Of a stretch of DNA of 64,000 nt, positions 11,951 through 42,126 are shown piece by piece. The position numbers and the translations under genes were made by a program. This stretch comes from Neisseria polysaccharea ATCC 43768 (GTDB lineage: Bacteria > Pseudomonadota > Gammaproteobacteria > Burkholderiales > Neisseriaceae). The notes under the pieces were generated by a model that made no database searches, was not told the DNA's origin, and worked only from the letters and a program-made list of their open reading frames with translations. Numbering within the stretch: the first letter of the stretch is position 1; the number at the start of each line of letters is the position of its first letter. The DNA lies in assembly GCA_000176735.1 (NCBI GenBank), contig ADBE01000060.1:1-64000 (forward strand), read 5' to 3'.

Positions 11951-12571
11951 ATGGCACAGTTTTTCGCCGTTCATCCCGACAATCCCCAAGAACGCCTCAT
12001 CAAGCAGGCGGTTGAAATCGTCAATAAAGGCGGCGTGGTCGTCTATCCGACCGATTCGTGTTACGCCTTGGGTTGCAAACTCGGCGATAAGGCGGCGATG
12101 GAACGCATACTCTCCATCCGCAAAATCGATCAGAAACACCATCTGACACTGGTCTGTGCCGATTTGAGCGAGTTGGGCACATACGCCAAAATCGACAACG
12201 TACAGTTTCGTCAGCTTAAGGCCGCCACGCCCGGACCTTATACCTTTATCTTGCAGGCGACGAAGGAAGTGCCGGCGCGCACGCTGCACCCGAAACGCAA
12301 AACCATCGGGCTGCGTATTCCCGATAATGCCATTGCACAAGCCCTGCTGGGGGAATTGGGCGAACCGCTTTTAAGCTGCACCCTGATGCTGCCCGAAGAC
12401 GGCGAACCGCTGACCGACCCTTATGAAATCCGCGACCGGCTGGAACACGCCGTCGATTTGGTGATTGACGGCGGCTGGTGCGGAACCGATCCGACTACCG
12501 TCATCGACATGACCGACGGTACGGAATTGGTGCGCCAAGGTTGCGGCGATACGGCGGTGTTCGGTTTGTAG
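11951..12571 (+). CDS. YciO/YrdC/Sua5 family protein
   Basis: 206 residues from the ATG at 11951, chosen because AAGGA lies nine bases upstream; an in-frame ATG at 11930 is possible but has no ribosome site. The family core binds double-stranded RNA or makes threonylcarbamoyl-AMP for tRNA t6A modification. Typical pieces are the KGGVVVYPTDSCYALGC start, SIRKIDQKHHLTLVC, TPGPYTFILQATKEVP and RKTIGLRIPDNAIA. The sequence resembles the YciO branch more than TsaC, so a role in t6A is uncertain and the precise function is not known. It is convergent with purH, separated by a DUS-pair hairpin. Confidence 0.85.
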   Translation: MAQFFAVHPDNPQERLIKQAVEIVNKGGVVVYPTDSCYALGCKLGDKAAMERILSIRKIDQKHHLTLVCADLSELGTYAKIDNVQFRQLKAATPGPYTFILQATKEVPARTLHPKRKTIGLRIPDNAIAQALLGELGEPLLSCTLMLPEDGEPLTDPYEIRDRLEHAVDLVIDGGWCGTDPTTVIDMTDGTELVRQGCGDTAVFGL

Positions 12572-28916: not shown

Positions 28917-29927
28917 ATGCACATCGGCGGCTATTTTATCGACAACCCCATCGCACTTGCGCCGATGGCGGGTATTACCGACAAACCCTTCCGCCGCTTC
29001 TGCCGCGATTTCGGCGCGGGTTGGGCGGTGTGCGAAATGCTGACCAGCGACCCGACGCTTAGAAATACCAAAAAGACCCTGCACCGCAGTGATTTTACCG
29101 ATGAAGGCGGCATCGTTGCCGTGCAGATTGCCGGCAGCGATCCGCAGCAGATGGCGGATGCCGCGCGTTACAACGTCAGCCTTGGGGCGCAGGTCATTGA
29201 CATCAACATGGGCTGTCCCGCCAAGAAAGTGTGCAACGTCCAAGCCGGTAGCGCGCTGATGCAGGACGAGCCGCTGGTTGCCGCCATTTTGGAAGCCGTC
29301 GTCCGTGCGGCAGGCGTACCCGTTACCCTCAAAACCCGTTTGGGCTGGCACGACGACCACAAAAACCTGCCTGCCGTCGCCCGCATCGCCGAAGATTGTG
29401 GCATTGCCGCCCTTGCCGTCCACGGACGCACGCGCACGCAAATGTACAAAGGCGAGGCGCGTTACGAACTCATCGCCGAAACCAAATGCCGTCTGAACAT
29501 CCCGGTCTGGGTCAATGGCGACATTACTTCGCCGCAAAAAGCCCAAGCCGTCCTCAAACAAACCGCCGCAGACGGCATCATGATAGGGCGCGGTGCGCAA
29601 GGCAGGCCGTGGTTCTTCCGTGATTTGAAACATTACGCCGAACACGGTGTTTTGCCGCCTGCTTTGAGTTTGGCAGAATGCAGTGCCGCCATTTTGAACC
29701 ACGTCCGCGCCATGCACGCGTTTTACGGCAACACCGCCGGCGTACGCATCGCCCGCAAACACATAGGCTGGTACATCGGCGAAATGCCCGATGGAGAACA
29801 GGCACGGCGTGAAATCAACCGCTTGGACAGTGCGGCGGCGCAATACGACACACTTGCCGGCTATCTTGAAAGGCTTGCCGGAAAAACCGACCGTTGGGCG
29901 TGCGCCTACCGCCCAAATGCCTTCTGA
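28917..29927 (+). CDS. dusB: tRNA-dihydrouridine synthase DusB
   Basis: 336 residues from the ATG at 28917, which starts at the first strand (HIGGYFIDNPIALAPMAGIT). Reading could extend upstream to 28752, but that would run through the Correia terminal repeat. DusB reduces uridine to dihydrouridine in tRNA, using FMN and NADPH. The FMN-binding NMGCPAKKVCNVQAGSALM with the catalytic cysteine, the KTRLGWHDDHKN block, HGRTRTQMYKG and GDITSPQKA are all present. It is followed by fis, the same dusB-fis order as in enterobacteria, which supports DusB over DusA or DusC. Confidence 0.93.
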   Translation: MHIGGYFIDNPIALAPMAGITDKPFRRFCRDFGAGWAVCEMLTSDPTLRNTKKTLHRSDFTDEGGIVAVQIAGSDPQQMADAARYNVSLGAQVIDINMGCPAKKVCNVQAGSALMQDEPLVAAILEAVVRAAGVPVTLKTRLGWHDDHKNLPAVARIAEDCGIAALAVHGRTRTQMYKGEARYELIAETKCRLNIPVWVNGDITSPQKAQAVLKQTAADGIMIGRGAQGRPWFFRDLKHYAEHGVLPPALSLAECSAAILNHVRAMHAFYGNTAGVRIARKHIGWYIGEMPDGEQARREINRLDSAAAQYDTLAGYLERLAGKTDRWACAYRPNAF

Positions 29928-41030: not shown

Positions 41031-41669
41031 TCAGACGAACATCTGCACAAACGCAATCACCAGCCGCACAATCTGTGCAATAAACGCACCCAATACGCCC
41101 GTCAGCATCAGCAGCAGGATAATCCACGTCCCATAGGGTTCGATTTTGCGGAACGCTTGCGAATATTTCGCCGGCAGGAAGGTATCGATAAAAATGCCGC
41201 CGTCCGAAGGCAGGATGGGGATGATATTGAGCGCGAACAGAATCGCATTGATCAGAATACCGTAGTTTGCCATTTGAGCCAGCGGCATCTGATACGCCCC
41301 GCCGACATACGGAGTCAGCACCAAAACCACGCCCCACAGAACCGCCATCGCCAGATTCGACAGCAGGCCGGACGCGGCAACGCAACGCCAGGCAAGGCGC
41401 GGATTGCGGAAGTTGCGCGAATCGATGGGAATCGGACGCGCCCAACCAAATAGAAACGGTGTGAACATCAAAGTAAGCAGCGGCACGATGATTGTGCCGA
41501 CCGGATCGATATGGGGCAGGGGGTTCAGTGTCAGCCTGCCGTATTGTTCGGCAGTGTTGTCTCCCCAGTAGCGCGCCGTATAGCCGCGTACCACCTCCCT
41601 GACAGTAATGGCAAGCAGTACGGGCAGGACGGCAAGCAGGAACACGCCCAAGTCAAAGTTCCGAAACAT
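41031..41669 (-). CDS. Site-2 protease-like membrane protein lacking the zinc motif
   Basis: 212 residues with about five membrane helices, clearly of the M50/S2P FtsH-independent rhomboid-free type often annotated site-2 protease family. The region that normally holds HExxH reads REVVR (residues 24-28 in ITVREVVRGYTARYWGD), so both zinc histidines are arginine. The second motif, usually NxxPxxPLDGG, reads NIIPILPSDGG (148-158), keeping the Asp that is the third ligand. NPLPHIDPVGTI and SGLLSN match the family. Glu25 remains, but without the histidines a zinc protease is unlikely. The frame is intact and well coded, so a non-catalytic role is inferred. It is convergent with grxB. Confidence 0.82.
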   Translation of the reverse strand: MFRNFDLGVFLLAVLPVLLAITVREVVRGYTARYWGDNTAEQYGRLTLNPLPHIDPVGTIIVPLLTLMFTPFLFGWARPIPIDSRNFRNPRLAWRCVAASGLLSNLAMAVLWGVVLVLTPYVGGAYQMPLAQMANYGILINAILFALNIIPILPSDGGIFIDTFLPAKYSQAFRKIEPYGTWIILLLMLTGVLGAFIAQIVRLVIAFVQMFV

Positions 41670-41877
41670 AATTTTCCTTTATAAAGGTTGATACACAGCC
41701 GCAACCGGCTGCCGGATAAAGGCGGCAATATATCATTTAACCCGATTTTGTTGGAACGGGAAAACAGGCAGAGCCGCTCCATTTGTCCGCAGGCATCTGA
41801 GAATTTATCATAATATATTGTTTCAATATGGATTTTGTGAATATAAAACCTGTAATAAAATAGATTAGAGATACATT

Positions 41878-42126
41878 ATGAATCCAAAAATATGTCCGCG
41901 CTGCAACCAAGGAATATTGTATATTTTTAAATCAAAATACATTTTGAAAGAAATTATTCTATGTGACGAATGTGATGCCATGTGGTTAAAAGGAATGAAA
42001 ATTACATATGGAGATTATGATAAAGATTTTTATAATTATGAAATATTTATGAATCAAAATGGCGTATCTTCTCCTTGGGAAGAGGAGAATATTTTTTTAA
42101 CACCTTACTATGAAAATGAACTTTAA
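41878..42126 (+). CDS. Small AT-rich orphan protein with two CxxC pairs
   Basis: 82 residues, not recognised. Two CxxC motifs, CPRC (about 5-8) and CDEC (about 35-38), could bind one zinc ion as a zinc ribbon; between them is ILYIFKSKYILKEIILCDEC. The rest is Tyr, Asn and Glu rich and AT-rich in codons. No signal peptide. An AT-rich leader with TAATAAAATA-type sequence precedes the ATG. It lies directly upstream of a decayed gene fragment and tonB. The composition suggests acquired DNA. Immunity-type or zinc-ribbon regulator roles are both possible; neither is supported strongly. Confidence 0.55.
   Translation: MNPKICPRCNQGILYIFKSKYILKEIILCDECDAMWLKGMKITYGDYDKDFYNYEIFMNQNGVSSPWEEENIFLTPYYENEL

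Follow-up and report, generated by a model that had tools for sequence, protein, structure and literature searches.

Site-2 proteases (S2P) are usually studied as enzymes that cut in regulated proteolysis. Rhomboids, which have a fold unlike that of S2P, form a serine-protease superfamily. Here, the rhomboid YqgP still works as an adaptor of FtsH when it is catalytically dead, as described in the available text of PMC7231995. Within the S2P family, the plant chloroplast protein EGY3 has been called the only pseudoenzyme, and it occurs in plants only (available text of PMC9355673). The zinc ligands of the S2P SpoIVFB are H43, H47 and D137 (excerpts of PMC11486902), and mutations in the HExxH and LDG motifs lower the activity of several S2Ps (excerpts of the review PMC10202637).

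In this study, a stretch of 64,000 nucleotides from Neisseria polysaccharea was analyzed, which is called the window throughout. It contains a gene for a short S2P relative in which both zinc histidines are replaced by arginine. Judged from its sequence, this protein is very probably a pseudoprotease of the compact S2P type, fixed in its lineage and dead as a protease.

The compact S2P homologue of the window

The features of the gene are listed in Table 1. The reading frame runs uninterrupted from an ATG at 41669 to a TGA at 41031, and an AAAGGA resembling a ribosome binding site can be read from the sequence immediately upstream (41675-41680). A scan for promoters and terminators gave counts near chance.

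Table 1. Position of the gene and of its motifs in the window (residue numbers refer to the encoded protein).
Feature	Position	Strand	Basis
Degenerate compact S2P/M50 orthologue of 212 aa, predicted to lack protease activity	41031..41669	-	Clean open reading frame; family orthologues; AlphaFold2 S2P fold
REVVR, residues 24-28, where HExxH is expected	41586..41600	-	Alignment of 69 orthologues; codons
NPLPHIDPVGT, residues 49-59, conserved non-catalytic motif	41493..41525	-	N49, P50, I54, D55, G58 and T59 invariant in 69/69
FGWARPIPI, residues 74-82, conserved loop motif	41424..41450	-	G75, W76, P79 and P81 invariant in 69/69
NIIPILPSDGG, residues 148-158; D156 (third zinc ligand) kept, L155 changed to Ser	41196..41228	-	Orthologue alignment
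Ile159; HExxH orthologues have Arg (36/37) or Lys (1/37)	41193..41195	-	Orthologue alignment
EPYG, residues 177-180, conserved C-terminal motif	41130..41141	-	Y179 and G180 invariant in 69/69

The original prediction placed REVVR at the HExxH position of a clean frame. This was confirmed by the ATG-TGA frame and by the alignment of 69 orthologues, in which REVVR stands in register with HExxH. A profile match places the helix with REVVR opposite HELGH of the S2P of M. jannaschii (mjS2P). Thus, arginine occupies both zinc-histidine positions (24 and 28), and the catalytic Glu25 is retained. The prediction also holds in that the family motifs around residues 49-59 and 148-158 are both kept. The residues flanking D156 are altered, with L155 changed to Ser and R159 to Ile. 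By motif, H43, H47 and D137 of SpoIVFB correspond to R24, R28 and D156. Because both histidines are lost, zinc binding and cutting should be abolished, and such a protein would be able neither to hold the catalytic zinc nor to cut.

The assignment to the S2P family rests on several lines of evidence. The Pfam M50 model (PF02163) scores the window protein at 18.8 bits, under the cut-off of 27.2. For comparison, an orthologue of the genus with HExxH (L016) reaches 42.7 and one with the arginine-type motif (L054) 39.9; since these two are nearly equal, the Pfam score is no marker of the active or the degenerate state. An NCBIfam search with the window protein assigned no family.

An AlphaFold2 model, from an input of 94 window and locus proteins, has a mean pLDDT of 91.7 and a pTM of 0.85. 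The top PDB matches by Foldseek are mjS2P (3b4r; E 4.5e-3, probability 1.00) and SpoIVFB, and Foldseek alone yielded no PDB match at E 0.001 or below. With VIA-align, the first nine ranks (Z 8.7-11.2) are filled by RseP, mjS2P, SpoIVFB and a model with the title RASP-ECSA, followed by a flagellar stator protein at Z 7.5. A Z below about 13 can be common among helical bundles, therefore the sequence evidence weighs more than the fold match. Here, the comparison of the family profile with mjS2P gives an E of 1.8e-9, and that with SpoIVFB an E of 3e-4. Of the hallmarks of an S2P/M50 peptidase, the window protein shows the third-ligand aspartate in the DG motif and the predicted S2P fold; HExxH is missing and the Pfam cut-off is not reached.

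Motif states and number of losses in the Neisseriaceae

The gene is present in 43 of 46 genomes of the genus (41/41 of high quality) and in 69 of 83 genomes of the family (61/71 of high quality). The orthologues share 42-97% identity with the window protein, HExxH and degenerate copies alike. Each family genome with the gene has one match, except G024, in which two equal-scoring matches (C1:16038-16673 and 2198342-2198977) lie on one contig of 2.2 Mb, reflecting either a duplication or an assembly overlap. In the ten high-quality family genomes lacking the gene (G046-G050, G055, G057, G065, G066 and G082), a second search with a profile found nothing in three and weak matches (E > 0.01) within a frame of RseP length in seven; we therefore count all ten as lacking the gene. 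These absences require four changes on the RelA tree, three of them forced by well-supported branches. The absence from 10 of 71 high-quality genomes indicates that the gene is dispensable in some lineages.

A motif census covered all 69 family genomes with the gene, one row per genome. HExxH is present in 37 rows, and 32 are degenerate, all with an open frame. The degenerate rows consist of RExxR (17), RExxK (1), SExxR (2), SExxC (7), PExxC (1), TVxxS (3) and TLxxS (1). Whether REVxR is fixed in all Neisseria orthologues had been named as a check, and this turned out not to be the case: 24 of the 43 genus genomes keep HExxH and 19 are degenerate, with 13 and 13 in the remaining family. The R type, in which both zinc histidines are lost to Arg or Arg/Lys, comprises 18 genomes, one per species, and the five species nearest to the window carry REVVR or REVAR.

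A sequencing error or a lesion of a single strain is ruled out as the origin of REVVR, since the arginine-type motif is common to 16-18 species with three different Arg24 codons (AGG in 6, CGC in 8 and CGT in 4 of the R-type genomes). HExxH orthologues pointing to a recent strain-specific loss, which would have spoken against the prediction, were looked for as well; this reading fails because the degenerate motif is common to several species.

Outside the family, the picture is uniform. At the order level, the gene was found in 305 of 346 high-quality genomes. HExxH and the aspartate of the DG motif are kept in 59/59 order-level loci, which represent other families and were taken from among the best-scoring matches with weak ones (E near 1e-4) left aside, and in 80/80 loci from named genomes, which were found via peptide patterns, one of them covering the DG box. 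None of these 80 carries a recognized Neisseriaceae genus, and one is labelled Neisseriales only. Among the 139 loci, 135 proteins are distinct and four repeat another. The gene is orthologous to a compact S2P intramembrane metalloprotease found widely in the order, and the HExxH copies are presumably still active, as their motifs suggest. Arginine would have taken the place of both zinc histidines in the common ancestor of several Neisseria species.

The number of losses depends on the tree. When the motif columns are excluded, the S2P tree calls for four changes of the active/degenerate label: one for the R clade of 18 (support 98/96), one for 12 rows that form a clade in another genus (99/95), and one each for L050 and L063. 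A RelA tree covering 79 genomes, obtained by a quick search under a simple model, requires seven. The 16-species R core including the window is accepted as one clade on RelA (p-AU 0.515), and the 18-member R clade, which adds G018 (REVAK) and G032 (REAAR), is rejected (p-AU 4e-5). Due to this conflict, G018 and G032 represent separate gains, sideways transfers or recombination at relA. G018 resembles ten further R-type loci and the active-type L019 in having a downstream gene for a dihydrouridine synthase (dus); it also has an LPWDGGI box, as most of the R core does, and an upstream yciO like active-type copies. Sideways transfer, or recombination at relA, may thus be involved in its history. 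Provided that no gene moved sideways, the trees suggest about four to six losses; an independent-pairs test had only two pairs on well-supported branches.

Such repeated loss would also be expected if a scaffold or structural function, borne by FGWxKPxPI and EPYG, were older than the loss and common to the whole subfamily, with proteolysis as an extra that was dropped repeatedly. This is in line with the RelA tree, which rejects a single clade of all 32 degenerate copies (p-AU 2.6e-57), and with the fact that much of the non-catalytic motifs is kept in all lineages. The short S2P alignment alone, however, rejects neither one clade of 32 (p-AU 0.069) nor one of 30 (p-AU 0.134), and the catalytic residues kept at 139/139 loci elsewhere show that proteolysis matters there. 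We regard this explanation as rather unlikely.

Residues, neighbors and selection after the loss

In 23 columns, a single residue accounts for at least 85% of the active-type rows, and most rows of a degenerate set depart from it. Fourteen of them lie in residues 24-31 (the HExxH helix) or 140-159 (the DG region), and nine at 47-104 and 166. In the 32 degenerate rows, L155 is changed in 25, R/K159 in 20, N148 in 16, D156 in 8 and E25 in 4, versus none of the 37 HExxH rows for any of these positions. The mean column entropy of three conserved stretches, to be compared with the different depths of the sets in mind, is about as high in the degenerate sets as in the active set, or lower: 0.40 and 0.42 versus 0.39 for NP..HID..GT, 0.56 and 0.59 versus 0.66 for FGWxKPxPI, and 0.25 and 0.27 versus 0.62 for EPYG. 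In the HExxH helix, by contrast, it is higher in the degenerate sets (0.59 and 0.55 versus 0.35). The conserved stretches also shift in the R-type rows, where K78 is replaced by Arg in 16/18 and V80 by Ile or Met in 17/18, and in the eight SExxC and PExxC rows, where H53 is replaced by Tyr and F74 by Val.

All 18 rows of the R clade retain D156, and 17 of the 18 have another residue in place of R159. The arginine pair opposite the leftover D156 probably supplies the positive charge that zinc once provided, and would keep the core packed. Together with the proline at position 156 of the SExxC and PExxC rows, the pattern of the R clade fits this idea without proving it. Against a strict Arg-Asp rule, the four T..S rows keep D156 with no arginine at either position.

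The conservation of E25, H53, D55 and D156 in 18/18 R-type rows could also be read as the sign of a hydrolase that still works with another metal site or mechanism. No new conserved histidine or cysteine is found in the R type, however, and L155, N148 and R159 have been lost in parallel. Furthermore, in the eight SExxC and PExxC rows D156 is a proline and H53 a tyrosine. A remaining hydrolase is therefore very improbable.

In the window, the gene lies between grxB (Pfam Glutaredoxin2_C) and an open reading frame of 82 aa, followed by genes which we take to be tonB, exbB and exbD; the gene on the far side of the S2P gene is presumably relA. The 82-aa frame (41878-42126, plus strand), located between the S2P gene and tonB, contains CPRC and CDEC pairs. 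It matched no Pfam family at E 0.01, and tblastn gave no match in the fetched neighborhoods of the five nearest species (L004-L008).

In other genomes, different neighbors are found. Counted in flanks of 1.5 to 4 kb, with some contigs ending earlier, yciO (Pfam Sua5_yciO_yrdC) precedes the gene in the same orientation in at least 42 of 69 loci (27/37 HExxH and 15/32 degenerate), and dus (Pfam Dus) downstream in at least 11/18 R-type loci and 1/37 HExxH loci (L019). The gaps between yciO and the S2P gene range from 39 to 2370 bp over the 42 loci. The order yciO-S2P-dus is present in both L017 (REVAK) and L019 (HEAAH). The degenerate copies are orthologous to the HExxH copies, as seen from their identity, the nearly single match per genome and this common neighborhood. 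In the clade of S, T and P types (L056, L060-L062 and L066-L073), 12/12 genomes have the degenerate gene 60-69 bp 3' of a co-oriented yciO, like several active-type genomes. This constancy agrees with the older scaffold function discussed above. In the window, the former neighbors yciO and dus are located elsewhere (11951-12568 and 28917-29912). Since the old neighbors are gone in the group of the window, no partner can be guessed from the neighborhood.

Apart from this gene, the genome of the window has a single M50 match, a 454-aa protein of the RseP type. The reading as an inactive paralogue that accompanies an active compact S2P is rejected on this ground. Each match listed by a Pfam search across the family falls, by eye, in an RseP-type gene or on the gene itself; in some genomes this search does not pick up the gene, and a strongly diverged extra copy could escape it. 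Most other genomes have a single RseP frame of about 450 aa. In G020, the RseP match (C1:2043949-2045228) consists of two separate open frames of 239 and 233 aa, owing to a real break or an assembly error, and in G060 the RseP-type match is partial.

With RseP as the only relative in its own genome and the predicted fold kept, the protein might act as a dominant-negative or decoy regulator of RseP, which binds and shields the same clients. RseP-type matches are present in 81/83 family genomes, however, alongside active, degenerate and missing compact copies alike, and no direct link was seen. This role appears improbable.

Selection was estimated with codon fits (GY+F3X4, fast tree search). 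For degenerate copies, dN/dS is 0.171 in the six species nearest to the window, 0.117 in seven intermediate ones and 0.147 in all 18 of the R type, and for the S/T/P type 0.103 (11 of 12 rows). The HExxH sets gave 0.104 (18 rows) and 0.117 (15 rows). Within the six species of the window's group, pairwise NG86 values range from 0.024 to 0.277. The degenerate sets are under purifying selection near the level of the active sets (0.10-0.17 versus 0.10-0.12). Of the two outcomes for which selection was to be checked, purifying selection was found in all sets; a mild relaxation is possible in the group of the window, as 0.171 stands against 0.104.

The arginines themselves are retained, Arg24 in 18/18 and Arg/Lys28 in 18/18 R-type rows. 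Under neutrality (omega 1, fitted R tree) and with the 18 rows treated as one clade, such retention has a P of 1.9e-4 for Arg24 and 2.9e-4 for Arg/Lys28. With the omega of the gene itself in place of 1, P rises to 0.15 (position 24) and 0.17 (position 28). The low P under neutrality indicates that the arginines are not neutral, with a constraint about that of the whole protein. A decaying gene, in which frameshifts are yet to come, would fit the 10/71 high-quality genomes without the gene and the slightly higher dN/dS in the group of the window. It is at odds with a dN/dS far below 1 in each degenerate set, with 32/32 open frames and with the retained arginines, and is thus highly unlikely.

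Function and relation to known systems

The loss of both zinc histidines in 18 genomes of the genus together with purifying selection upholds the pseudoprotease reading of the original prediction. Since the protein is still kept by selection after the catalytic loss, a role without cutting is most likely. The reading that we favor, with moderate confidence, is that a compact S2P lost both zinc histidines and was kept for a job that needs the fold and no cutting. Here, the old substrate groove would most likely hold a transmembrane client or a partner protein, and by analogy with known inactive proteases the most likely role would be that of an adaptor or decoy. A chaperone or a regulator, as considered in the original prediction, would be other candidate roles.

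A wider reading can be offered tentatively, as possible rather than probable. The Neisseriaceae would have turned one and the same protease into a pseudoprotease four to six times, using an arginine pair in place of the metal in the lineage of the window, and the non-cutting function retained in each case, such as holding or presenting clients, would be the original core of the subfamily.

Related species with active, degenerate and absent versions provide a natural experiment, in small bacteria, on what an intramembrane protease fold does without cutting. Furthermore, naming such proteins zinc proteases by homology alone would be wrong in many Neisseria species.

As far as open-access listings show, no bacterial S2P pseudoprotease is in print, and EGY3 is already known. 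Titles and beginnings of abstracts revealed no such protein and nothing on the window protein, and the available passages that pair 'inactive' with S2P describe none. No match was obtained in this literature for the locus tag NMB1733, and 'Neisseria' is absent from the available text of the S2P review PMC10202637.

Among the known systems, mjS2P (3b4r) and SpoIVFB (8vjl, 8vjm) resemble the window protein in the predicted fold (Z 10.4 and 9.5, respectively) and in the third-ligand aspartate, which is kept in all three. Unlike these, the window protein has arginine at both zinc-histidine positions. Compared to its own active orthologues, it is changed in addition at the Arg after and the Leu before DGG.

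EGY3 is similar in being a conserved S2P relative that is predicted to be inactive (available text of PMC9355673). In contrast, EGY3 is a plant thylakoid protein, whereas the window protein is short and bacterial and arose in a family with several separate losses; the two are likened by protein family and predicted state. The rhomboid pseudoproteases (iRhoms and Derlins) and the catalytically dead YqgP likewise have an inactive intramembrane protease fold, which can present clients to another machine (available text of PMC7231995). Here, an adaptor function is known for YqgP, and for the window protein it would be a comparable role, suggested by this likeness.
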